From positions 1 to 45,814 of the forward strand of contig CADACD010000019.1 of NCBI GenBank assembly GCA_902786365.1: a stretch of 45,814 nucleotides of DNA, given 5' to 3'. Position numbers and translations under genes: made by a program. This document shows, one piece after another, positions 8,675 through 45,487 of this stretch. The stretch comes from an uncultured Lachnospiraceae bacterium. GTDB lineage: Bacteria > Bacillota > Clostridia > Lachnospirales > Lachnospiraceae. Under the pieces are notes generated by a model, which worked only from the letters and a program-made list of their open reading frames with translations, was not told the DNA's origin and ran no database searches. Within the stretch, counting starts at the first letter, position 1. Each line of letters begins with the position of its first letter.

Positions 8675-8768
8675 TGTTTATTTGCTATAATTTAATGGTA
8701 AACATTTCTAATTTAAATGATAAAGAATGAACTAAGTAAATTTGACAGTGAATGAATGGAGGATTGTT

Positions 8769-9437
8769 ATGGGAGATAAACAGAAGAACGGTAAAATGAA
8801 AACATGCAAGTATTGTCAGAGTGAAATACCGGCAAAAGCAAAAATCTGTCCAAATTGCCGAAAGAAACAAAAGAGGATAGGGAAATGGATAGTAATAGCG
8901 ATTGTTATTATTATAATAATTGCAGCAGCAAGCTCTGGTTCGGGTAAGGATGAACCTAAAAAAGTGGGAGAAGTAAGTGGAAGCAGTGGAGAAGGAAGCA
9001 GTAATAATGGAGGAACTGATAACAAACAAAATCAGGAAGTAAATGATAGTGGATTTAACGTAGGTGATATCGTTGAATCGGAAAATTTAAGAATTACATT
9101 TATATCAACATCAGATTATACATCGGATAATCAGTTTTTACAGCCAAAGGAGGGATATAAATATATTCAGGCAGAATTTGAGTTTGAAAATATAGGAAAA
9201 AACGACGAATTTGTAAGCGAAGTTGATTTTTCATGCTATGCAGATGGATATGATATGGAAGAAAAATACTTTGATGGTGCGTCTCTTTCAGCAACTTTAT
9301 CAGCTGGTAAGAAAACAAAAGGGGCAGTATTTTTTGAGGTACCTGCTGATGCAAAAGAGATTATTCTTGAATATGAGACAAATTATTGGACAGAAAAAAA
9401 GATTGTCTTTAATGTGTTAAAGACAGAGGGAGAGTAA
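8769..9437 (+). CDS. Zinc-ribbon, membrane-anchored DUF4352 protein
   Basis: About 222 residues. A short cytoplasmic N-terminus carries a zinc ribbon CKYCQSEIPAKAKICPNC (CxxC...CxxC), then a basic stretch, one transmembrane helix rich in Ile/Val (about residues 42-62), a Gly/Ser/Asn-rich linker to about residue 100 and an extracytoplasmic immunoglobulin-like DUF4352 domain. The segment FLQPKEGYKYIQAEFEFENI is characteristic of DUF4352. The ATG at 8769 follows GGAGG by five bases; an in-frame TTG upstream lacks a site. The cytoplasmic zinc ribbon and outside beta-sandwich could transmit an envelope signal, possibly with the neighbouring kinase, but nothing direct shows this. Function unknown. 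Confidence 0.8.
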   Translation: MGDKQKNGKMKTCKYCQSEIPAKAKICPNCRKKQKRIGKWIVIAIVIIIIIAAASSGSGKDEPKKVGEVSGSSGEGSSNNGGTDNKQNQEVNDSGFNVGDIVESENLRITFISTSDYTSDNQFLQPKEGYKYIQAEFEFENIGKNDEFVSEVDFSCYADGYDMEEKYFDGASLSATLSAGKKTKGAVFFEVPADAKEIILEYETNYWTEKKIVFNVLKTEGE

Positions 9438-9502: not shown

Positions 9503-9616
9503 GTTAGTTAGCAACGCCTAATTAATGGCAGAAATTGCAAATTTGTGAGGAAAGGAAACGGATTATTTATTTGTCATCAAGATAAATATATAATTTCAAA
9601 AAAGGTAAAGCAAAAA

Positions 9617-10597
9617 ATGAAAATCGGAATTTTAGGATATGGTAATCTTGGAAGAGGCATTGAGTGTGCAATCAAGCAGGCTGATGATGCAGAGCTTGTA
9701 GCAGTATTTACAAGAAGAAATCCTGATGATGTCAAGATTTTGACAGAAGGAGTGAATGTTTATTCTGTATCAGAAATTGAGGCACACAAAGACGAGATAG
9801 ATGTCCTTGTTCTCTGTGGAGGAAGTGCAACAGATTTGCCGGAGCAGACACCTGAATATGCAAAGTATTTCAATGTCATTGACAGTTTTGATACACATGC
9901 AAGAATCCCTGAGCATTTCGCAAATGTAGATAAAGCAGCAAAAGAAAATGGTCATACAGCACTCATTTCATGTGGATGGGACCCGGGAATGTTCTCGCTC
10001 AACAGATTGTATGCCAATGCAATTTTACCACAGGGTAATGACTATACATTCTGGGGCAAGGGTGTCAGTCAGGGACATTCAGATGCCATCAGAAGAGTGG
10101 AAGGTGTCAAAGACGGAAAGCAGTACACAATTCCTATTGACAGTGCATTAGAATCAGTCAGAAATGGCGAAAATCCTGAACTTACAACAAGACAGAAACA
10201 TTTAAGAGAGTGTTTTGTTGTGGCAGAGGAAGGTGCAGACTTTGCAAAGATTGAGGATACAATCAAAAATATGCCAAATTATTTTTCAGATTATGATACA
10301 ATTGTTCATTTCATCTCAGAGGATGAGTTAAAGGCTAACCACAGCGGTATTCCTCATGGTGGTTTTGTTTTCAGAACAGGTGTGACAGGTTGGAATGGTG
10401 AGAACAAGCATGTGATTGAGTATAGCTTAAAACTTGATTCAAATCCGGAGTTTACATCATCTGTTATCCTTGCATATGCAAGAGCAATCAATAGACTTCA
10501 TAAGGAAGGTGTCAATGGATGTAAGACGGTATTTGATATTGCACCTGCTTATTTAAGTCCATTATCAGGTGAGGAACTTAGAGCACATATGTTGTAA
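9617..10597 (+). CDS. ddh: meso-Diaminopimelate D-dehydrogenase
   Basis: 326 residues, the usual length for this enzyme. It makes meso-diaminopimelate in one NADPH-dependent step from tetrahydrodipicolinate, feeding lysine and peptidoglycan synthesis. The N-terminal Rossmann motif is MKIGILGYGNLGRGIECAI, followed by VAVFTRRNPD, which fits NADPH binding. SCGWDPGMFSLNRLYANA near residue 123 and FWGKGVSQGHSDAIRRVEGV near residue 146 are strongly diagnostic. The start at 9617 matches the conserved family start; an upstream in-frame GTG at 9545 would add 24 non-conserved residues. The site before the ATG (AAAGGTAAAG) is modest. The gene stands alone behind a good promoter. Confidence 0.93.
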   Translation: MKIGILGYGNLGRGIECAIKQADDAELVAVFTRRNPDDVKILTEGVNVYSVSEIEAHKDEIDVLVLCGGSATDLPEQTPEYAKYFNVIDSFDTHARIPEHFANVDKAAKENGHTALISCGWDPGMFSLNRLYANAILPQGNDYTFWGKGVSQGHSDAIRRVEGVKDGKQYTIPIDSALESVRNGENPELTTRQKHLRECFVVAEEGADFAKIEDTIKNMPNYFSDYDTIVHFISEDELKANHSGIPHGGFVFRTGVTGWNGENKHVIEYSLKLDSNPEFTSSVILAYARAINRLHKEGVNGCKTVFDIAPAYLSPLSGEELRAHML

Positions 10598-35231: not shown

Positions 35232-36602
35232 ATGCAGGGTTTTAATCCGTTTGAGGAGACACCATTGCCTATTGAGAAAATTTTGATGGATTGGAATATG
35301 ATGTATCCAAAACCATATAATAAAAATACAGTGGATCCTTATACAAAGACAAGGATTATATTGATGAATGGTACAGAGTTTGAGGCACAGTGGTTTTCAA
35401 GAAATTTTTCAAGACATTGTGAGGATAATGATATCAGAAGAGAACTTGCGTTGGTCCGAAGAAGTGAGCAACAGCAACAAAAAAGGATATCATGTCTTAA
35501 GCCGAAAGATGAAACAATCCTGGAACATACCATTGGATATGAGCAGCTGGCGGTGGATTTGACAGCAGTTCTTGCACTTGATGAACCGGATTGTAATGTG
35601 AGAAATGCACTTAATTTTGCACTTCTTGAGGATTTTGACCATTTATACAGATATTCCAATCTGTTGAATCTTGAATATGGGGAATATCCTGAAAAACTTG
35701 TAGGAGGGTATACCGAGATTATGCCGGCGAGACCGACAATCTCTGAACACCGTCATCCATGTGACAGTATCTTCAAATATATTAATAATGAAACGGCCGA
35801 GATGAGGACAAAACTGCATGTTAATATTATTACTGCCGCAGAACAGCAGACGATGAATTATTATATGAATGTGGCACCGTTCTACTGCAAGTCTGATGTG
35901 GGAAGAAGATTGTATCAGGAAATCGGCATGATAGAGGAAGAGCATGTAAGCCAGTATGAGAGTCTGAAAGATACGAGAGTGACTTGGCTGGAAGATTTGC
36001 TCATGCACGAATATACGGAATGTTACTTATATTATTCATGTATGATGACAGAATGTGATAACAGAATCAAGAATATCTGGGAGGAATGTCTTGTTCAGGA
36101 AATTGCACATCTTCATAAAGCAAAAGAATTACTTGAAAAATATGAAGGAAAAGAATGGCAGGAAGTAATCCCTTGCGGAACATTTCCGGAGGTTTTAAAA
36201 CTTGGACCGAATATTGAGTATATCCGTGATATCATAGCAACCACAACAGGTAATACGCAAAAATGTGAAGATGTAGTTGCTATATTTGATTTGCCACCAA
36301 ATGCTGATTTTTATCAGTATCAGAATATTGTAAACGGGGATGTGAACAGTGTGGCAAGTCACAGAATCATTGACCAACATATCAGAAGTATGGGAAGAGA
36401 TTACAGATATGAACTGGGACCGAATCCGCTCATTTCCTTGAGGAACAGAATGATGGATAATACTAATCTTGCACGAAATCCTAAGGCAACACCGATGTCG
36501 TCTACAGTTGCCGGAAAGACTTCGGATTGTAGAAGGCGACCGATGCCAATGCCTCCTATGCAACGCTCTATGAGGCAGGGAGATAGAGAAGGCAGACGAT
36601 AA
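35232..36602 (+). CDS. Ferritin-like (rubrerythrin-type) diiron protein of unknown function
   Basis: 456 residues, no signal peptide or membrane helix. Residues 94-300 are long helices with ferritin-like metal motifs: Glu104 and an incomplete D134xxH137; Glu204, E235EEH238; Glu260/Glu263; E290IAH293. The last four positions follow the canonical order E, ExxH, E, ExxH for a dinuclear iron or manganese site in a four-helix bundle. EEEHVSQYESL resembles rubrerythrin and bacterioferritin helices. A polyGln/Arg stretch near residue 80 and a Met/Pro/Arg-rich C-terminus (about 430-456) are unusual. There is no rubredoxin domain. AAGGAGAATATTTT precedes the ATG. It could be an oxidase, a peroxide scavenger or a metal store; I do not know. 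Confidence 0.7.
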   Translation: MQGFNPFEETPLPIEKILMDWNMMYPKPYNKNTVDPYTKTRIILMNGTEFEAQWFSRNFSRHCEDNDIRRELALVRRSEQQQQKRISCLKPKDETILEHTIGYEQLAVDLTAVLALDEPDCNVRNALNFALLEDFDHLYRYSNLLNLEYGEYPEKLVGGYTEIMPARPTISEHRHPCDSIFKYINNETAEMRTKLHVNIITAAEQQTMNYYMNVAPFYCKSDVGRRLYQEIGMIEEEHVSQYESLKDTRVTWLEDLLMHEYTECYLYYSCMMTECDNRIKNIWEECLVQEIAHLHKAKELLEKYEGKEWQEVIPCGTFPEVLKLGPNIEYIRDIIATTTGNTQKCEDVVAIFDLPPNADFYQYQNIVNGDVNSVASHRIIDQHIRSMGRDYRYELGPNPLISLRNRMMDNTNLARNPKATPMSSTVAGKTSDCRRRPMPMPPMQRSMRQGDREGRR

Positions 36603-37465: not shown

Positions 37466-37494
37466 TTGACAAAAAAAATGCAATATGCTATTCT
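37466..37494 (+). promoter_or_regulatory. Promoter of the apbE-led electron-transfer operon
   Basis: Consensus TTGACA (37466-37471), a 17-base spacer and TATTCT (37489-37494) with TGC before it. The start is predicted near 37501, giving a leader of about 140 bases before apbE. Confidence 0.7.
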
Positions 37495-37511
37495 ATGCGA
37501 GGTAGATTTAT

Positions 37512-37532
37512 CTAACGCATGTTAGAAATGAC
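37512..37532 (+). promoter_or_regulatory. Putative operator in the apbE leader
   Basis: Overlapping palindromes just after the predicted transcription start: CTAAC-GCAT-GTTAG (37512-37525) and GTTA-GAAA-TGAC (37521-37532). TGTTAGAAATGAC is matched at 12 of 13 positions by TGTTAGAAATAAC in the promoter of the wall-anchored FMN protein at 43367-43379. Confidence 0.5.
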
Positions 37533-37549
37533 ATGTATAAGTTAGAAAA

Positions 37550-37575
37550 AGATAACCTGTTTTTTATGGTTATCT
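37550..37575 (+). promoter_or_regulatory. Hairpin in the apbE leader
   Basis: AGATAACC and GGTTATCT form eight pairs around a T-rich 10-base loop. No T tract follows. It may protect the mRNA or attenuate; there is no match to the FMN riboswitch consensus that I can see. Confidence 0.4.
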
Positions 37576-37642
37576 CACTAAGAAGATTATATTACTAAAA
37601 ATATTACTGCTTATATAATATATTTTAGAGAGGCATTTTTAA

Positions 37643-38770
37643 GTGAAAGAAAAGAATAATCTAAGAAAAACTTTATCTGTATTCATATGTGTCGCATGTT
37701 GCTCATTATTTGTTTCATGTGGTAATTCTAACACAGGTAATGCAGATAAAACAAAAGATAATGAGTCAGGAATTTCTGCTTCAGAAATTGATAAAAAAAA
37801 CGGCGGGAATAATGATGATGACTACGCTGCGAGCAGAGACATATTTGCCATGGATACATATATGACTGTAAAGGCATACGGAAGTAATGCTGATGAAGCC
37901 GTGGAAGAAGCAATTAAAGAGATTGAAAGACTTGACGGAATGTTGTCAGCAACTGATAAAGATAGTGAGATTTACAAACTTAATATGAATCAAGGTGGCA
38001 GTTTATCAGAGGATGTTTCCTATCTGATTGAAAGATCAAAAGAAATCTATGAAAGTACGGAAGGAACGTTTAATATTGCCATATATCCGATTGTTGAAAA
38101 ATGGGGATTTGCAAGCGGAGATTACAATGTTCCAACACAGGATGAGCTTAATGAACTGTTAAAAGATACAGATTTCTCAAAGGTAAATTATGATAAAAAC
38201 AACCAGTCTTTGTTATATGAAACAGAAACAATGAAAATTGACCTTGGCGGAATTGCAAAGGGATATACTTCTGCAAGGATAATGGATATTTTTAAAGATT
38301 TGGGAGTTACAAGCGGAATCGTAAATCTTGGAGGAAATGTGCAGGTACTTGGAACGAAAACGGATGGAAGTGACTGGAAGGTTGCGATTCAGGATCCACT
38401 TGATGAGGATAGTTATATTGGTGTATTAAAGACACATGATAAAGCAGTAATTACATCGGGGGGATATGAGAGGTATTTTGAAAAAGATGGAGTGAGATAT
38501 CATCATATAATAGATCCAAAGACAGGATATCCGGCGGACAGCGGACTTATTTCAGTGACTATTGTGTGTTCGGACGGAACTATGGCCGATTGTCTTTCTA
38601 CCTCTCTTTTTATCATGGGAAAAGATGAAGCAATAGCATATTGGAAAAAACACAGTAGTGAATTTGACACAATTTTATATACAGAAAATAATGAATTGCT
38701 TGTGACAGAGGGAATAGCAGATCAGTTTACCAGTGAATTAAATATTACAATTATTAATGATGATAAGTAA
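37643..38770 (+). CDS. apbE: Exported FAD:protein FMN transferase (ApbE lipoprotein)
   Basis: 375 residues starting at GTG, with AGAGAGG upstream. The signal peptide ends in LFVSCGN, a lipobox with Cys26, so the enzyme is tethered outside the membrane. A charged spacer leads to the ApbE domain (about 65-370): IFAMDTYMTVKAYG, MKIDLGGIAKGYTSARI, GIVNLGGNVQVLG, HHIIDPKTGYPADSG and DCLSTSLFIMG. ApbE enzymes take FMN from FAD and attach it to a threonine in proteins with an SGAT-type motif. Five such motifs are encoded in the next two genes and one more in the wall protein at 43436, so these are the evident substrates. It heads the operon to 43270. Confidence 0.95.
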   Translation: MKEKNNLRKTLSVFICVACCSLFVSCGNSNTGNADKTKDNESGISASEIDKKNGGNNDDDYAASRDIFAMDTYMTVKAYGSNADEAVEEAIKEIERLDGMLSATDKDSEIYKLNMNQGGSLSEDVSYLIERSKEIYESTEGTFNIAIYPIVEKWGFASGDYNVPTQDELNELLKDTDFSKVNYDKNNQSLLYETETMKIDLGGIAKGYTSARIMDIFKDLGVTSGIVNLGGNVQVLGTKTDGSDWKVAIQDPLDEDSYIGVLKTHDKAVITSGGYERYFEKDGVRYHHIIDPKTGYPADSGLISVTIVCSDGTMADCLSTSLFIMGKDEAIAYWKKHSSEFDTILYTENNELLVTEGIADQFTSELNITIINDDK

Positions 38771-38791
38771 AATTGGGAAATGAGGTATAAT

Positions 38792-40840
38792 ATGAAGAAA
38801 AAAATATCAGTATTTGCACCGATACTTTCAGTAGTTTTAGTTGGAAGCTGTATAGGTATTTCATTAACAGGATATAGTGCACCTGTATATAAAGTGCAGG
38901 CGTTTGAAGGTAATTTAACCCAAAATGTTGATACAAATGAACAGGATAAGAAAAATAAAGAACACTCGGAAGCTGATAATGAAGATATGGAAAATAGCAA
39001 AGCTCAAAGTCTGAATGTTAATGGATGTTTTGATTTGGAAGATGGAGTGTATGAGGGAAGTGGAACAGGATTTTCCGGTATTGTCAGGGTTGCGGTTGAG
39101 ATAAAGGATAAAAAGATTGTAAACATAGAAGTTATCAGTAACGAAGATGATGAAGCATTTTTTAACAGGGCAAAAGGTGTAATAGCTAATATCATAGCAG
39201 GTCAGAGTACTGATGTAGATGTAATATCTGGAGCAACATACAGTTCAAGAGGTATTATAGAAGCTGTTAATAATGCTTTAAAGATAAATGGTACTTCACA
39301 GGGGAATGGTTCTAATACAAATATCAATTCCAATAATCGGGAAAATAGTAATCAATCATCAAACATCAATGAGGTACTTGAAACACTAAAAGATGATGAA
39401 AAACTTAAGGATGGAATATATTATGGAACCGGAACCGGATTTGCAGGAGATTTAACTGTGAAGGTAGTAATTGAAGGAGGAAAAATCATATCAGTTTCTA
39501 TTGTTTCAACAAATGATGGAGATGATTTTATTGCAAAGGCATCCGCTATATTAACAGATATTGTGAACAAACAAAACCTTGATGTAGATACAGTGTCAGG
39601 AGCAACATATAGTTCAAGAGGCATTATACAAGCAGCGGCAAATGCGATTAAACAGGCAGTTGTAACGGACAGTGCAGATGTGTTGAATGGATATTATGGT
39701 GAAGAAAATCGTAGTCAGAATAATGTAAATTCCGGTGGTAATAGTGGAAAAACATCAAATAATACCGATGGAAACTCTATACATAAAGCAAGTGATTCGG
39801 TATCGGAAGGAAATATACCTTATATTGATGGTATTTACTATGGAACCGGGGATGGATTTTCAGGTGAGGTCAAAGTTTCTGTAGAGATAAAAAATCATAC
39901 AATAAGAGCAATCAATGTGATTAGTACAGAAGATGATGCAGCATTTTTTGATAGAGCAATAAGCCTGGTTGATGAAATGTTAGAAAAACAGGAAACAAAA
40001 GTTGATACTGTATCAGGTGCAACATTTAGTTCAGAAGGAATTATTGATGCTGTTAATGACGCTCTTGCAGCAGCGAAAAAGGCAACTGAAGAAGCAGAAA
40101 GAAAAGATGGCAGCAGTCAAGACGCAAAAGATAATGAAAGTTCACAAAACATTAATGATAAAGAAAATACAGGTGACAAAGAAATTACAGATATCAATCA
40201 GAATACAGATGACAATGAAAATGATAAAGACATTTCAGAGGATGGAAAAGATGACAACAAAGAAAATCAGGATGATAGCAAAGTACAATCCAATGTTTAT
40301 CATGATGGTACATATTTAGTAAATGTCATTTGTGTGCCTGATGAAGATGAGATGTTTGAAGAGTACCATCTTTCAATGAACGTAACCATAGAATCAGATA
40401 AAATTGTCAATATTACAGATGTTGCAGGAGATGGAGAATTGTCAAATAATACTTATATAAAGAGAGCGTCAGTTGGAACATCGAAACTGAAAGGAATGAT
40501 AGATAAAATCATCGAGACAGGTTTGAATGAAGAAATTGATACAGTATCAGGAGCAACATGTACATCAAAATCCATTATAGAAGGTTGTAAAGAGGCATTT
40601 GAAATTGCAAAGATTGAAACTGATAGCGATAATTCAAACGAAAATCCTGAAGAAGATAATCATTCAAATGAAGACAACAATTCAATAAGTATTCTATATT
40701 TGAGTAATCAAAAAGCAAATGAAGAACAGAACGGAGGAGTAGAGGGGTTATATATTGATTTGACAGAAGTTGATAAACAAAAAAGGTTCAATAGTCTGCA
40801 ATTGAAGGATGTAAACAATCTGCTGAGTGGAGGTATATGA
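38792..40840 (+). CDS. Exported protein with four covalent FMN-binding domains
   Basis: About 682 residues. GAGGT six bases upstream favours the ATG at 38792 over that at 38780. An N-terminal hydrophobic segment (about 5-30, with VGSC as a possible lipobox) exports or anchors it. Four FMN_bind domains follow, each opening with a DGxYxG-type segment and closing with the flavinylation motif: VISGATYSS near residue 147, VSGATYSS near 268, VSGATFSS near 407 and VSGATCTS near 585. The threonine of SGAT should carry FMN. Asn/Asp/Lys-rich linkers separate the domains, the longest (about 440-500) before the fourth. No sortase signal or C-terminal helix is seen. It resembles a stretched PplA-type electron shuttle. 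It ends just before the next FMN gene. Confidence 0.93.
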   Translation: MKKKISVFAPILSVVLVGSCIGISLTGYSAPVYKVQAFEGNLTQNVDTNEQDKKNKEHSEADNEDMENSKAQSLNVNGCFDLEDGVYEGSGTGFSGIVRVAVEIKDKKIVNIEVISNEDDEAFFNRAKGVIANIIAGQSTDVDVISGATYSSRGIIEAVNNALKINGTSQGNGSNTNINSNNRENSNQSSNINEVLETLKDDEKLKDGIYYGTGTGFAGDLTVKVVIEGGKIISVSIVSTNDGDDFIAKASAILTDIVNKQNLDVDTVSGATYSSRGIIQAAANAIKQAVVTDSADVLNGYYGEENRSQNNVNSGGNSGKTSNNTDGNSIHKASDSVSEGNIPYIDGIYYGTGDGFSGEVKVSVEIKNHTIRAINVISTEDDAAFFDRAISLVDEMLEKQETKVDTVSGATFSSEGIIDAVNDALAAAKKATEEAERKDGSSQDAKDNESSQNINDKENTGDKEITDINQNTDDNENDKDISEDGKDDNKENQDDSKVQSNVYHDGTYLVNVICVPDEDEMFEEYHLSMNVTIESDKIVNITDVAGDGELSNNTYIKRASVGTSKLKGMIDKIIETGLNEEIDTVSGATCTSKSIIEGCKEAFEIAKIETDSDNSNENPEEDNHSNEDNNSISILYLSNQKANEEQNGGVEGLYIDLTEVDKQKRFNSLQLKDVNNLLSGGI

Positions 40841-40847
40841 TACGGCT

Positions 40848-41327
40848 ATGAAAGATTTAATGGTTAGAATATTTAGTGTTTTGTTAATCGTAATAGCACT
40901 AATAGGATATAACATGACGGTGCAGGTTAGAGAAAAAGATAATGAAATCGCAAAGATTAATTCACAGCTTCAGTATTCAAAGCAAGAAGCGGAATATTAT
41001 AAAACACAATTTATAGAACTAAGTGGTATTGAAGAAGAAAATAAAGAAAGTGAATCTAAGTATAATGATGGCATTTACGAAGGAACTGCTATGGGATTTG
41101 GTGGTGATATAACCGTTTCTGTAGAGATTGAAAATGGAAGTATTAAAAGTATAAATGTCACTAAGGCAAGTGGGGAAGATGGAGCTTACCTTGAGATGGC
41201 GAAGGACATTATCAATAATATTATAGAAGCAGGAGATGCCGATGTGGATACAGTCAGCGGTGCAACATTTAGTTCAACAGGAATCAAAAATGCAACTATA
41301 GAGGCACTTAGCAGTGCAGAAAAATGA
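40848..41327 (+). CDS. Membrane-tethered single FMN-binding domain protein
   Basis: About 159 residues: an N-terminal transmembrane helix (about 5-22), a short coiled coil (about 25-55, VREKDNEIAKINSQLQYSKQ) and one FMN_bind domain (about 70-159) with DGIYEGTAMGFGGD and the flavinylation motif TVSGATFSSTG near residue 140. It resembles RnfG/NqrC-type subunits in layout but lacks their partners. It likely passes electrons between the membrane Fe-S protein encoded next and the multi-FMN protein encoded before. The ATG at 40848 is my choice, although GGAGG is 14 bases away; a GTG at 40827 would overlap the upstream gene and that site. Confidence 0.9.
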   Translation: MKDLMVRIFSVLLIVIALIGYNMTVQVREKDNEIAKINSQLQYSKQEAEYYKTQFIELSGIEEENKESESKYNDGIYEGTAMGFGGDITVSVEIENGSIKSINVTKASGEDGAYLEMAKDIINNIIEAGDADVDTVSGATFSSTGIKNATIEALSSAEK

Positions 41328-41349
41328 TTAGAATGGAGCAATTATTACT

Positions 41350-42228
41350 ATGCAGAAAGAAAAAATAGATATAAGAAATCTGTCAGTTAAGCAGAAGAAA
41401 AAATTACATATTTATTTAAGAGCTGTAATACAATTGTTATATTTTATTTTTCTGCCATCAGCATTTACAGCAGGGTTTGCAGGTATAAAGTATATATTTA
41501 CACAGATTGGTATAGGAAATGAGATTACTATAACATCGTTCATGACAGTGCTAGTTGTACTTTGTCTCTACACGATTGTATTTGGAAGATTTTTCTGCGG
41601 TTTTGCATGTGCATTTGGAACACTTGGAGAAGCTGTCAGGGCATTTTATGTCTTTATGTGCAAAAAATTAAAGAAAAAGCCGATTACGATAGGAACAAAA
41701 GTGGCAGGATACTTATCATACATAAAATATGTCATATTAACGGGTATTGTCATATTATGTTTCAAAGGTTCTTATTCGGTTATGCAGGGTAAAAGTCCAT
41801 GGGACGTATTTTCCATGCTGCATGCGAGAAATTTTCGATTTGAGAGATATACAGTCGGAGTGATAGTTCTTATACTTTTGGTTGTAGGAATGTGTTTTCA
41901 GGAAAGATTTTTCTGTAGATTTTTTTGCCCGATGGGTGCTGTATTTTCAATACTTCCTGTACTTCCGTTTTTCTCACTTCACAGAGACAGAGAAAATTGT
42001 ATAAAGAATTGTACAGCGTGTACAAGAAAATGTCCTGCCGATATTGAACTTCCAAAGAAAGGTTCATTAGAGGTAAGAGGAGATTGTTTTCAGTGCCAGA
42101 AATGTATCGACACATGTCCAAAGTCCAATATACACTGTGGAATACATGTGTTTAAAGGAAATGAAGTATTGTTTACATTATTCAGGGCAGCACTATTGTT
42201 TTGTCTGTTTATGTGGATTGGATTGTAA
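41350..42228 (+). CDS. NapH-like membrane polyferredoxin (4Fe-4S)
   Basis: 292 residues with about five transmembrane helices. Two membrane-edge motifs, FFCGFACAFGTLGEA near residue 82 and FFCRFFCPMGAVFS near residue 190, are the CxxxC(P/A)xG pairs of the NapH/NosR/RdxA group. Between the fourth and last helices lie two cluster motifs: CIKNCTACTRKCP and CFQCQKCIDTCP, for two 4Fe-4S centres, plus a further Cys in NIHCGIH. Proteins of this group take electrons from the quinol pool or cytosolic donors and hand them to extracytosolic acceptors. Here the acceptors would be the flavinylated proteins encoded just upstream. The NusG-II gene starts 11 bases after this stop. Confidence 0.9.
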   Translation: MQKEKIDIRNLSVKQKKKLHIYLRAVIQLLYFIFLPSAFTAGFAGIKYIFTQIGIGNEITITSFMTVLVVLCLYTIVFGRFFCGFACAFGTLGEAVRAFYVFMCKKLKKKPITIGTKVAGYLSYIKYVILTGIVILCFKGSYSVMQGKSPWDVFSMLHARNFRFERYTVGVIVLILLVVGMCFQERFFCRFFCPMGAVFSILPVLPFFSLHRDRENCIKNCTACTRKCPADIELPKKGSLEVRGDCFQCQKCIDTCPKSNIHCGIHVFKGNEVLFTLFRAALLFCLFMWIGL

Positions 42229-42239
42229 AAAAACATTGT

Positions 42240-42695
42240 ATGATGATAGATAAGGATATAAAAGTGAAAAAGAAAGATATAATTTTAGGAATAACCATTA
42301 TAATAATTGGACTGATTCTAATGTTTGTTATGAAATTATATAACAATTCACAAGGCGATGAGGTCATTATTAAAGTAGACGGAAAAATATATGGAAAATA
42401 TTCTCTTGATAAAAATCAGGAGATTGAAATAGATACAGAATATGGACATAATACTGTATGTATTGAAAATCGAAAAGCTTACATGAAAGAAGCGGATTGT
42501 CCTGATGGGTATTGTAAACATCAGGGACATATAAGTAAAGGCAATCAGACAATTGTATGTCTGCCACACAAGCTCGTTGTTGAGATAAAGGTGAATGATA
42601 AATCATCAGGTGATAATGCTAAGTTGGGAAATAATAATGTTAGCAAAGACAATGATTCTGAAGACGAGTTGATTCCGGATGCAATAGTAAAATAG
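42240..42695 (+). CDS. NusG domain II-containing membrane-anchored protein
   Basis: About 151 residues: one N-terminal transmembrane helix (about 12-32), then a NusG-II beta domain outside the membrane with the signature EADCPDGYCKHQGHISKGNQ and TIVCLPHKLVVEI, including three conserved cysteines. The last 40 residues are Asn/Asp/Ser-rich. In many firmicutes this family is encoded next to a Gx transporter and an ApbE protein; from memory, the Listeria extracellular electron transfer locus has the same pair (EetA/EetB). Start choice is uncertain: no clear ribosome binding site precedes the ATGs at 42240 and 42243, so coupling to the preceding gene is likely. Confidence 0.82.
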   Translation: MMIDKDIKVKKKDIILGITIIIIGLILMFVMKLYNNSQGDEVIIKVDGKIYGKYSLDKNQEIEIDTEYGHNTVCIENRKAYMKEADCPDGYCKHQGHISKGNQTIVCLPHKLVVEIKVNDKSSGDNAKLGNNNVSKDNDSEDELIPDAIVK

Positions 42696-42769
42696 AATGA
42701 TAGAAATACAATGTCTCTTTGGCGAGAAGCAAAAGGGCACAATGCATATTATATGTGTGGAGGTATAGG

Positions 42770-43270
42770 ATGAGTAAAAAAGTTGCATATTGTGCAATAT
42801 TGATTGCACTTGCGATGATATTTAGCTATGTTGAAGCTGTGATACCTGTCAATTTCGGCATTCCGGGAATAAAGCTCGGTGTTGCCAATATTGTTGTAGT
42901 GGTGGGGCTTTATATCATAAAAGCAAGAGAAGTGTTTGTCATATCAGTAATAAGAATTATTTTAGTAGGAATACTTTTTGGAAATGTTATGTCGATTTTA
43001 TATAGTCTGGCTGGTGGAATTCTAAGTTTGATAGTAATGTTGTTAATGAAGAAAATGAAAGGATTTTCTATAGTTGGAGTCAGTATTGCCGGCGGGGTAA
43101 GCCACAATGTGGGGCAGCTTGCCGTTGCTATTGCGGTTGTGGAAAATCTTAAATTAATTGCATATATTCCGGTTCTTTTAATTGCAGGGGCAATTACCGG
43201 TTTTATAATTGGAATTCTGTCATCAAAGATTGTACCTGTTATGAAAAAAGAAGTTGAGAAAGTAGTATAG
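42770..43270 (+). CDS. Gx transporter family protein (heptaprenyl diphosphate synthase component I-like)
   Basis: About 166 residues, nearly all hydrophobic, with five or six helices. VEAVIPVNFGIPGIKLGVAN near residue 18 and GVSHNVGQLAVAI near residue 112 are diagnostic of this family, which resembles ECF-type substrate-binding membrane components despite its historical name. It may import or flip a small precursor such as a flavin or quinone head group for the electron-transfer system; the substrate is not established. GGAGG lies six bases before the ATG at 42770, so the longer frame from 42719 is rejected. It is the last gene of the operon. Confidence 0.9.
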   Translation: MSKKVAYCAILIALAMIFSYVEAVIPVNFGIPGIKLGVANIVVVVGLYIIKAREVFVISVIRIILVGILFGNVMSILYSLAGGILSLIVMLLMKKMKGFSIVGVSIAGGVSHNVGQLAVAIAVVENLKLIAYIPVLLIAGAITGFIIGILSSKIVPVMKKEVEKVV

Positions 43271-43330
43271 GGTACTCTGTGAACAGTAACCTATAGGAAA
43301 AATCAATAGTAACTTTAATAAATTTACTAA

Positions 43331-43359
43331 TTGACAAATACAAAATAGTTAGTTATACT
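43331..43359 (+). promoter_or_regulatory. Promoter of the wall-anchored FMN protein gene
   Basis: Consensus TTGACA (43331-43336), 17-base spacer and TATACT (43354-43359). The predicted transcription start is near 43366, about 70 bases before the start codon. Confidence 0.75.
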
Positions 43360-43390
43360 TAACTACTGTTAGAAATAACTGATAACAGTT
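43351..43390 (+). promoter_or_regulatory. Cluster of palindromic operator-like sites
   Basis: Three palindromes with four-base centres overlap the -10 box and transcription start: AGTTA-TACT-TAACT (43351-43364), GTTA-GAAA-TAAC (43368-43379) and AACTG-ATAA-CAGTT (43377-43390). The middle one matches a site in the apbE leader. The arrangement looks like repressor binding; the family is unknown. Confidence 0.55.
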
Positions 43391-43435
43391 AAGTATCTAA
43401 TATAAAAAAATTGTATGTATGAAAGGAGCATATAC

Positions 43436-45487
43436 ATGAGGAAAAACAAATTAATATCTTCAGTGTTGACATTGGCAATGGTGTTTAATTTGTTACCTGT
43501 ATCCGCTTTAGCTGAACCGGCAGAAGTGAAGTATAAAGACGGAATATATACAGGAACAGCTACAGTAAAAGATGTCGATGGAGATTTTGATGATTACAAA
43601 CTTACAGTTGAAGTAAGTGTATCAGATGGTAAAATTACAGATATAACAGCAGAACCTGACGAAAGCGAATATTCGGACGATAATGATGCATATTGGAATT
43701 ATGCAATCAATGGTCGTAAGCGTTCAGGCACATTTTATGAGAGTGTTATCAGTCAGATTATCAATAATCAGAATACTGATGCTGATGCTGTATCGGGTGC
43801 GACATGTACATCAGATGCGATTATAGAGGCAGTTAAAAATGCATTAGCTGATGCTGTTGATTCATCATCAGAAACAGTTTCATCGGGATATGCACTTGTG
43901 AATATTCCATATGATAAGTTCTACGGTGCAGAAGGCACAACAAACTTTGATACAGATGCCATCAGTTCGGCAACAAACAAAGTTGGAAATTATGGAAAAG
44001 CCGGTGGAGCAGAAGATGGAAGTGTAACAGCAGTCGGTGGAGAAAACGGAGCACATCTTGAAGGTGTGACATGGCCTGTAAAGGTAAATGATATATCTGC
44101 ACTGAAGGCACTTGGCGGTGTAGAAATCACAGATGAGAGCAAGGTAACAGTAGCAACAGCCAAAAAAGGAAAGACATCAGCTACAGAACTTGAAGGAGCA
44201 GCAGCACTTACAGAGGCACCTGCATATTCCTACTATATCCTTACAGAGGAACCGGACTATTATGTAACTCTTGATATTGACGGTGAAACAGTAGAATTTT
44301 CAGGACTTGTAGGAGAGGTTAAAGAACTTGATAAGCTTGATGTAGATGTATCGTATGCAACACACTGGGGTGATGTTCGGTTCGACTTTGCAGGAGCAGA
44401 GGAAGTGGCTGATAAGCAGGTTAATGCAGTAGTCATCACAGCAGATGATGGAACAACAGGCGGACTTGTACATCTTTATAACATTTGGTCATACAATTCA
44501 CTTGCATGGAATGTGGCAAACGTAAAAGGTCTTGACGGAGTGAAAGTGACAAATATCCGTTACTACTGCAATGACAAGGAAGGTAACTATTATGTATATG
44601 ATTATCCTGTAGAACTTGATATTCTTCCGATTTATACAGGAGAAGTTACAGCAGCATTTGCAGATGACAGTACAATTACATTAGCAGGACTTCCAGATGA
44701 TATCAAGAATCCGACAGCTACAGTTTACTATACATCAGGTGAAAGAGGAGCAGCTTATGAATACCTCACACCTACACATATCGATCCGGAAGACGGAGAT
44801 GTTGAACCAGATACAACAGAGGTAGTAGATGGAAAGATAGCTTTGGCAGAGAAACCTGAGAATGGAAAGACGTATACAATCGTTATCGGAAGTGATAACT
44901 ATGTTGCAATCACAGTTAGTGCTAAGACAGCATTAGAAGCAGCTGTAGACACAGCAGAGGCTATTGATTCAGATAAATATACAGACGAAACAGTGGAAGC
45001 ATTGAATGAAGTATTAGAGAATGCGAAAGAAATACTTGCAAAAGAAGATGCTACTCAGGAAGAAATCGATGCAGCAACTGCTAAGGTAAATGAGGCAGTG
45101 GAGGCACTGGTGGAAAAGACTGAAGAGCAAAAAGAAGATGACAGCAAGACAGAGGATGACAGCAAGACAGAGGATGACAGCAAGACAGAGGATGACAGTA
45201 AGACAGACAATGACAAGAAAACAGATGCTGATGAGAGCAACACGGATAATACCGGAAGTGATAAGTCATCTGATGATAAGCAGGCAGATAATACAAATGT
45301 AACAGATAATAATTCTAAGACAGATAATAATAATGTCGCACCGGCTACAACTACTAATACAAATATTAATACTCCTGTTAAGACAGGTGATAATACAAAT
45401 ATTTGGGGAATATTTAGTGCAATCATTGTAGCACTTGGTGGCTTAGGACTTTCAATTAAGCTCAAAAAGAAAGAGACAGAAGAATAA
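43436..45487 (+). CDS. Sortase-anchored surface protein with FMN-binding domain
   Basis: About 683 residues. A signal peptide ends near LPVSALAEPAEV. Residues 25-140 form an FMN_bind domain with DGIYTGTATVKDVDG and the flavinylation motif AVSGATCTSDAII near residue 130. A long middle part (about 145-480) begins with a related but degenerate DAISSATNK and includes beta-rich domains I cannot name. A FIVAR-like helical domain (about 500-560) follows, then four DDSKTE repeats, an Asn/Thr/Asp linker and the cell-wall signal PVKTGDN, a hydrophobic helix and KLKKKETEE. The sorting motif departs from LPxTG (TPVKTG). It should bring a flavin to the outer wall surface. AAGGAG is seven bases before the ATG; it has its own promoter and terminator. 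Confidence 0.92.
   Translation: MRKNKLISSVLTLAMVFNLLPVSALAEPAEVKYKDGIYTGTATVKDVDGDFDDYKLTVEVSVSDGKITDITAEPDESEYSDDNDAYWNYAINGRKRSGTFYESVISQIINNQNTDADAVSGATCTSDAIIEAVKNALADAVDSSSETVSSGYALVNIPYDKFYGAEGTTNFDTDAISSATNKVGNYGKAGGAEDGSVTAVGGENGAHLEGVTWPVKVNDISALKALGGVEITDESKVTVATAKKGKTSATELEGAAALTEAPAYSYYILTEEPDYYVTLDIDGETVEFSGLVGEVKELDKLDVDVSYATHWGDVRFDFAGAEEVADKQVNAVVITADDGTTGGLVHLYNIWSYNSLAWNVANVKGLDGVKVTNIRYYCNDKEGNYYVYDYPVELDILPIYTGEVTAAFADDSTITLAGLPDDIKNPTATVYYTSGERGAAYEYLTPTHIDPEDGDVEPDTTEVVDGKIALAEKPENGKTYTIVIGSDNYVAITVSAKTALEAAVDTAEAIDSDKYTDETVEALNEVLENAKEILAKEDATQEEIDAATAKVNEAVEALVEKTEEQKEDDSKTEDDSKTEDDSKTEDDSKTDNDKKTDADESNTDNTGSDKSSDDKQADNTNVTDNNSKTDNNNVAPATTTNTNINTPVKTGDNTNIWGIFSAIIVALGGLGLSIKLKKKETEE
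45137..45208 (+). repeat. 18-bp tandem repeat coding for DDSKTE
   Basis: Four copies of an 18-base unit beginning GATGACAGCAAGACAGAG at 45137, 45155, 45173 and 45191 (the last with two substitutions), within the wall-spanning linker of the surface protein. The copy number may vary between strains. Confidence 0.92.

Follow-up and report, generated by a model that had tools for sequence, protein, structure and literature searches.

A seven-gene flavin locus lies near the end of the contig CADACD010000019.1 (assembly GCA_902786365.1; 45,814 nucleotides, analysed over its full length and called here the window) of an uncultured Lachnospiraceae bacterium. It encodes an ApbE-family flavin transferase, three proteins with flavin mononucleotide (FMN)-binding domains, a NapH-like iron-sulfur membrane protein and two proteins of the EetA and EetB types. 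Sequence comparisons indicate that this locus probably encodes a flavin-based surface reductase that is switched on under iron starvation, draws its electrons from ferredoxin or flavodoxin and feeds the uptake of Fe(II). It should be emphasized that the new content is the likely purpose of the locus and not its architecture, which belongs to already described kinds. The gene content, the flavin-site motifs, the operator-like sites common to several iron genes, the linkage to such genes in some relatives and the lack of UbiA-family matches in the genomes examined are read from sequence, whereas we infer the flavinylation, the repression, the order of the electron carriers, their donor and acceptor, and the metal sensed. 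An earlier note on this DNA had left the acceptor open, as iron or a soluble organic compound; it can be narrowed to iron assimilation because operator-like sites and neighbouring genes tie the locus to iron genes.

These sites derive from a palindrome, GTTAG-N6-CTAAC, which was first seen when the promoters of flavin loci were compared side by side and which is present in many of them. Across the window and 20 relative loci, 372,772 bases in all, there are 24 occurrences of TTAG-N6-CTAA, versus 0 to 5 for each of the other spacings from 0 to 15. Moreover, 22 of these 24 matches are found within 260 bases upstream of a called open reading frame (ORF), the ORFs having been called mechanically and some being spurious. 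Other candidates were abandoned. A first guess at the operator, with a wrong spacing, matched one place only, and a 25-base pattern had two exact matches, both in the locus, and 33 matches with up to three mismatches versus 78 in the reversed control. The inner dyad CTAAC-N4-GTTA, a by-product of tandem sites, stayed under its control in each of ten genomes. That the palindrome acts as a short RNA hairpin and not as a DNA operator seems less likely, as the five-base arms are constant in the listed sites and the middle varies.

In the genome to which the window belongs, the palindrome precedes feoA, feoB, a DtxR-family gene (PF01325 and PF02742) and a DUF3793-flavodoxin-DUF2325 operon. Seventeen stretches, fetched for their clustered or perfect operator matches and thus not a random sample of the genome-wide matches, hold feoA, feoB, DtxR-family genes, DUF3793-flavodoxin-DUF2325 operons, Fur-like genes, a P-type ATPase with a DUF6110 protein, and energy-coupling factor (ECF) and ATP-binding cassette (ABC) transporters, many of them directly behind a site. 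Ten operator-linked proteins, eight from the window's genome and two from the genome G026, were checked by Pfam. FeoA, FeoB, flavodoxin and Fur make up a typical iron-limitation set. In the same genome, the operator also precedes ABC transporter genes and two ECF-type sets (L133, L134, L135 and L136, Trep_Strep being confirmed in L135), whose substrates may be metal complexes.

The association was examined with a 20-bp operator model. Its 21 training sites all lie outside flavin loci, in seven stretches that carry feo, flavodoxin/DUF2325 or ATPase genes. At a score threshold of 12, the 80 related loci contain 150 sites. At least one is found in 71 loci, and 36 of the 59 testable loci have one upstream of apbE (counted from 350 bases before the estimated apbE start to 60 bases after it). 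When the same loci were scored with sixty permuted models, the means were 13 sites, 11.6 loci and 0.4 apbE regions, with maxima of 31, 25 and 3, and block-shuffled sequence yielded 15 sites. Once the eight loci that duplicate discovery loci are removed, the remaining 72, which share no DNA with the training stretches, retain 136 sites, in 64 loci and upstream of apbE in 31 of 52, versus means of 11.5, 10.1 and 0.3 and maxima of 28, 22 and 3 for the permuted models. The shared operator-like sites thus appear to tie the locus to feoAB-type iron genes in a putative DtxR-type regulon, and a DtxR-type protein would act as its repressor.

When the whole 45.8 kb of the window is scored, four of its five top model sites fall in the two promoters of this locus (Table 1). 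The third-best site (9505-9524, score 12.2, GTTAG-N6-CTAAT) lies between the ORFs 8742-9437 and 9545-10597, the latter of which we take, by reading, to encode a diaminopimelate dehydrogenase. Site 3 overlaps its -10 hexamer and site 1 lies just downstream of its own, both being frequent positions for repressor sites. Steps of 20 bases, such as that from site 3 to site 4, recur most often among close sites of the 80 related loci (6 of 21 pairs no more than 60 bases apart). The locus of the window contributes none of the 24 exact TTAG-N6-CTAA matches, and each of its sites has at least one mismatch. As a negative control, other flavin genes of this genome were scored with about 3 kb of sequence around each: the Rnf-type genes, the second apbE and the MsrQ-like FMN gene gave no site above 7.4.

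Table 1. Promoter-like sites, operator-like sites and genes of the flavin locus (positions in the window).
Feature	Position	Strand	Basis or score
apbE-operon promoter-like site, TTGACA-17-TATTCT, TG before the second hexamer	37466..37494	+	promoter scan
operator-like site 1, core GGTAG-N6-CTAAC, one mismatch to GTTAG-N6-CTAAC	37499..37518	+	score 13.4, second in window
operator-like site 2, core GTTAG-N6-ATAAC, 40 bases after site 1	37539..37558	+	score 14.8, best in window
ApbE-family FAD:protein FMN transferase, lipobox-like motif, GTG start	37643..38770	+	Pfam
exported protein with four FMN_bind domains and four SGAT sites (FMN4)	38792..40840	+	Pfam, motif scan
single FMN_bind domain behind one N-terminal membrane segment, one SGAT (FMN1)	40848..41327	+	Pfam, motif scan
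NapH-like polytopic Fe-S protein, two Fer4_5 motifs, C-terminal 2x[4Fe-4S] region	41350..42228	+	Pfam
EetA-type protein (NusG_II, PF07009), one membrane segment	42240..42695	+	Pfam
EetB-type protein (PF07456), putative ECF-S-like FAD exporter subunit	42770..43270	+	Pfam; function from available text of PMC9973259
wall-gene promoter-like site, TTGACA-17-TATACT	43331..43359	+	promoter scan
operator-like site 3, core GTTAG-N6-TTAAC, overlaps the wall-gene -10 hexamer	43346..43365	+	score 12.1, fourth in window
operator-like site 4, core GTTAG-N6-CTGAT, 20 bases after site 3	43366..43385	+	score 11.2, fifth in window
wall-type protein: one FMN_bind, one SGAT, beta-rich module, FIVAR, PVKTGD-type anchor	43436..45487	+	Pfam, NCBIfam, structure model

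Besides the sites, genes of iron type adjoin the flavin genes in 10 of the 80 loci (five of which were checked by Pfam). For example, in L149, from an uncultured Dorea, dtxR is divergent from apbE with one operator between them, and in L196 a distant feoB-type gene has the same arrangement, again with one operator. In L210, dtxR, feoA, feoB and fur follow the NapH-like gene, whereas L208, L212 and L220 carry feoAB. An ATPase/DUF6110 pair, which we provisionally take to be ferrosome-like (FezAB), is present in L223 together with dtxR and fur, and also in L214 and L225 (Faecalibacterium prausnitzii); L177 (Ruminococcus callidus) carries an ATPase.

Several observations weigh against an iron-controlled reductase. 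The training sites were collected with a pattern first seen in flavin promoters, so that the test is not fully independent. A site scoring 12 is lacking upstream of apbE in 23 of the 59 testable loci (21 of 52 in the reduced set), and the 500 bases that follow NapH(-NusG-Gx) contain one in 32 of 76 loci and none in 44, many of which have a site elsewhere. The window's own sites are imperfect, with scores of 11.2-14.8 versus 15.3-20.4 in training, below every training site. Furthermore, genome-wide counts of the strict pattern versus its reversed control are 125 to 85 in eight genomes (palindromes being counted on both strands) and 17 to 15 in the window's genome, and the case therefore rests on the positions of the sites. 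Seventy of the 80 loci have none of the listed iron genes nearby (query set, E<=1e-8), except for weak or unrelated transporter, DUF3793 and ZIP-type matches. Sites also precede ABC and ECF transporters to which no substrate was assigned. Lastly, the sensed metal could be manganese, since the best NCBIfam models of the regulator, below their cut-off, are those of MntR.

This last point leads to a different explanation, in which the operator would belong to an MntR-like regulon sensing manganese or a broader range of metals and the electron chain would serve another extracytosolic reduction, such as that of wall enzymes or thiols. A gene that we label as ZIP-type and multidrug-type ABC genes also carry sites, in agreement with it; the presence of sites at feoA, feoB and flavodoxin genes and the adjoining Fur-family genes argue the other way, and we consider this explanation the least probable of those weighed here.

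If the locus is an iron-starvation-induced surface reductase, its operation could be as follows. When the metal is scarce, the DtxR-family repressor would leave both promoters. Flavin adenine dinucleotide (FAD) would be exported by EetB together with EetA and shared ECF parts, and ApbE would attach FMN to six threonines. A low-potential carrier of the cytosol, either reduced ferredoxin or the flavodoxin from an operon with the same operator, would feed the 2x[4Fe-4S] end of the NapH-like protein, and electrons would cross the membrane through this protein to the tethered FMN protein, then to the four-FMN protein and the wall protein. The latter would reduce Fe(III) or an iron complex, and the resulting Fe(II) would enter through FeoAB. 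A path from membrane to wall had already been proposed in the earlier note and is plausible, although its exact order is one that we infer.

Concerning the donor, no match to the UbiA prenyltransferase family (PF01040) was found in any of 13 genomes, namely the window's own and 12 chosen among the 20 genomes with fetched loci, while all 14 controls were positive. Self-made menaquinol or demethylmenaquinol is thus an unlikely donor, and the reading of a quinol-fed NapH-like protein is weakened. Since the NapH-like protein has a 2x[4Fe-4S] tail, ferredoxin would be a natural guess, as would the flavodoxin that apparently shares the regulon. Use of exogenous quinones has been reported for Lactiplantibacillus, and such quinones are a possible donor here, which is a further point against the proposal.

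The absence of a UbiA-family match also bears on a rival explanation along the lines of the earlier note, in which the locus would dispose of reducing power onto extracellular iron or organic acceptors, in a dissimilatory way or to balance fermentation, like the extracellular electron transfer (EET) of Listeria. EetA/EetB-type proteins, ApbE and FMN proteins are indeed found as in Listeria-type loci, and PMC13134045, in its available part, proposes a NosR-ApbE module for the reduction of iron plaque in Clostridium. However, no NADH dehydrogenase was found among the nine proteins scanned between position 35232 and the end of the window (no search for one was made elsewhere in the genome), and the operator-like sites are shared with iron-uptake genes. 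Electron export of this kind therefore seems unlikely, although it is the alternative to which we give most weight.

The gene content described in the earlier note holds throughout: the seven ORFs are intact, follow each other in the announced order on the + strand, at the same place, and match the expected Pfam families (E=9e-90 for ApbE). In the same way, a search for [S/T]GA[S/T]x[S/T] in all seven proteins recovers exactly the six motifs counted before in three proteins, split 4 + 1 + 1. All of them read D-x-[VTA]-[VI]-SGAT or similar, and FMN would be attached at their six threonines. The four-FMN protein has an N-terminal hydrophobic segment and thus corresponds to a multi-flavinylated protein, i.e., an exported protein with more than one FMN_bind domain.

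The NapH-like protein, with a Fer4_5 score of 40.5 bits (Pfam cut-off 22), six hydrophobic segments and ApbE and FMN_bind neighbours, has the features of NapH-like flavinylation systems. It is a distant relative of NapH rather than NapH itself, as judged from 78.2 bits versus a cut-off of 213 for TIGR02163 and 72.5 versus 234 for NF007013. Twelve cysteines are invariant in 15 aligned NapH-like proteins, four of them in two membrane motifs and eight in the C-terminal region. Its structure model (mean predicted local distance difference test, pLDDT, 83.8) had no match in the PDB at E<=0.001.

The proteins that the earlier note called NusG-II and Gx transporter are present (NusG_II, E=3e-34; Hpre_diP_synt_I, E=5e-41) but their identity can be refined: the pair PF07009 and PF07456 designates them as EetA and EetB, whose genes are those of FAD export. 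According to the available text of PMC9973259, EetB of Listeria is an FAD-exporting ECF-S-type subunit that feeds an ApbE-type enzyme, and a clean deletion of eetA has no electron-export phenotype. By analogy, the two proteins are more likely to be involved in cofactor supply than to be part of the electron wire. The other FMN_bind matches of the same genome are RnfG-like and MsrQ-like proteins (labelled from their sequences and neighbours), and one further ApbE is encoded about 3 kb from the RnfG-like gene. Because the only PF07456 gene of this genome is the EetB-type gene of the locus, while an Rnf-type complex should need exported FAD, the locus may also supply FAD to the Rnf flavins, whose flavinylation may depend on it.

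The starts given in Table 1 for FMN4, FMN1, NusG-II, EetB and the wall gene were read by eye, as an in-frame ATG behind a stretch resembling a ribosome-binding site, that of NusG-II having no clear one. With these likely starts, the first six genes are separated by 7-74 bases. The wall gene is probably transcribed separately because a 165-base gap precedes it and it has its own promoter-like site, although single sites are weak evidence as the promoter scan of the region gave 76 of them for 40.5 expected. A terminator scan, with 2 sites for 3.2 expected, was at chance and says little; one of the two falls within the NapH-like gene, on the coding strand. A 456-aa protein (35232-36602), encoded two genes before apbE, belongs to no Pfam family over cut-off and to no NCBIfam family; on reading, it gives the impression of ExxH-rich, ferritin-like stretches.

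The wall protein contains one FMN_bind domain, a FIVAR domain and a weak LPXTG-type anchor in Pfam. The anchor motif is PVKTGD instead of LPXTG and scores 19.6 bits for a Pfam cut-off of 20, and 17.3 versus 15.9 for TIGR01167. A hydrophobic segment is present, and the genome has seven sortase matches. Large surface proteins encoded in other loci also contain the middle region, once or twice. Some of these carry a Shr-like haemoglobin-interacting domain (cut-off 22.3 bits): three of the nine scanned (L039, 39.1; L041, 25.2; L042, 25.2) and the wall protein of L223 (32.1). This would suit a starvation-induced reductase whose substrate is haem, or protein- or siderophore-bound iron, captured by wall proteins. 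However, neither the window's wall protein nor the other five of the nine has such a match above cut-off, and a small Shr-like domain need not mean haem binding; we regard such a substrate as improbable, somewhat more so than electron export.

For the structure model of the wall protein (mean pLDDT 73.7), the best structural match is Tp47 of Treponema pallidum (E=1.3e-8). This match is weak, with TM-scores of 0.31 and 0.35 and a root-mean-square deviation of 7.9 A, and a sequence profile of the wall module found no Tp47 chain. Strong Tp47_a and Tp47_c domains are nevertheless present in four of the nine scanned related surface proteins (L039, L042, L048 and L044), as well as in an operator-preceded protein of F. 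prausnitzii (L225, 5038-6354). The likeness of the modelled module to Tp47 is therefore suggestive of a common fold and not of a common function. Proteins with Tp47_a and Tp47_c recur in or beside flavin loci, some directly behind an operator. A link between Tp47-like proteins and flavin electron transfer is possible.

Among 200 genomes of the same family, 70, including that of the window, have a NapH-like match (E<=1e-10), the lower ones covering mostly the ferredoxin-like end; the other listed genome of the same genus (G182) has none. Twenty loci were fetched from near the top of this list of 70, and it is for that part that conservation can be stated. ApbE, multi-FMN, tethered FMN and NapH-like proteins occur together in 14 of them. 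In the other six, two are cut by contig ends (L045 and L052), two are without a nearby ApbE (L047 and L055) and two are of a fused NosR-like type (L057 and L058). Fifty-three of the 80 related loci are at least 12 kb long; ApbE, FMN4 and FMN1 are found together in 45 of these, a PF07456-type protein in 30 and a NusG-II-type protein in 22. The wall-gene count (49 of 53) was not used as it is inflated by the FMN domain included in the wall query. The titles of the loci include Coprococcus comes, Coprococcus catus, Eubacterium ramulus, R. callidus, Oliverpabstia intestinalis, Hominisplanchenecus faecis, Thomasclavelia saccharogumia and F. prausnitzii.

This range invites a wider proposal, which we advance tentatively, our confidence and our doubts being almost balanced. 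A quinone-independent surface ferric reductase driven by ferredoxin or flavodoxin could be a common iron-starvation tool of anaerobic Clostridia, among them familiar commensals of the gut such as F. prausnitzii, Coprococcus and E. ramulus. It would consist of a flavin wire across the thick wall, with a Tp47-like terminus, and would be controlled together with feoAB and possible iron-storage genes. An iron-type operator gives a purpose to the NapH-like multi-flavinylated type found in many Clostridia; the iron reading predicts when the locus switches on and makes quinol an unlikely donor. If true, it would explain how fermentative gut anaerobes that make no quinones reach ferric iron.

The suggestion of the earlier note that a polyferredoxin in place of Ndh2 may define a separate variant does not stand, as both NapH-like and multi-flavinylated clusters are described in PMC8238504 (Meheust et al. 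2021). The consulted portion of that paper reports 2465 NapH-like clusters, 539 of them with a separate FMN gene, as well as multi-flavinylated clusters with FIVAR-type wall proteins, and the available part of PMC9973259 adds that eetB co-localises with some NapH-like systems. The NapH-like systems share with the window the PF12801 membrane Fe-S protein beside ApbE and FMN_bind, a subset having the separate FMN gene. However, the NapH section of PMC8238504 deals with respiratory oxidoreductases, the word FeoB is absent from its main text, and in its available part iron assimilation is tied to MsrQ-like, PepSY-like, DsbD/DUF3570, NQR/RNF-like and P19 clusters, whereas here the operator is of iron type. 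A link between NapH-like clusters and iron uptake or its regulation was not found among the papers listed by searches of the open-licence literature, without supplements. The multi-flavinylated clusters (Fig. 6 of the same source) also have several FMN domains per protein, a FIVAR wall partner and a proposed path across the wall; their role is given there as "generally unclear", while here one type may be tied to an iron-type operator.

The EET locus of Listeria monocytogenes (EetA, EetB, FmnA, FmnB, PplA, demethylmenaquinone) has in common with the window EetA/EetB, an ApbE-type enzyme and FMN domains of SGAT type. It differs by its NADH dehydrogenase and its synthesis of demethylmenaquinone, instead of which the window's cluster has a NapH-like protein, in a genome without a UbiA-family match. 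The NosR-ApbE module of Clostridium (PMC13134045, available part) links ApbE and a NosR-type protein to Fe(III) reduction, but its FMN domains are inside NosR and it is proposed to be respiratory and quinone-fed, unlike the locus studied here. Closer to iron handling, Huang et al. 2024 (PMC11334425) connect flavinylation-type cytochromes with ferrosomes; the accessible text concerns DUF4405/FezC cytochromes and not NapH-like clusters or their regulation. Finally, flavinylation has been proposed to serve iron assimilation in the PepSY- and MsrQ-like reductases, and some PepSY-like clusters are Fur-repressed (PMC8238504, available part). These reductases rely on a membrane protein of haem type, whereas the locus of the window combines an Fe-S NapH-like protein with a putative DtxR-type operator.

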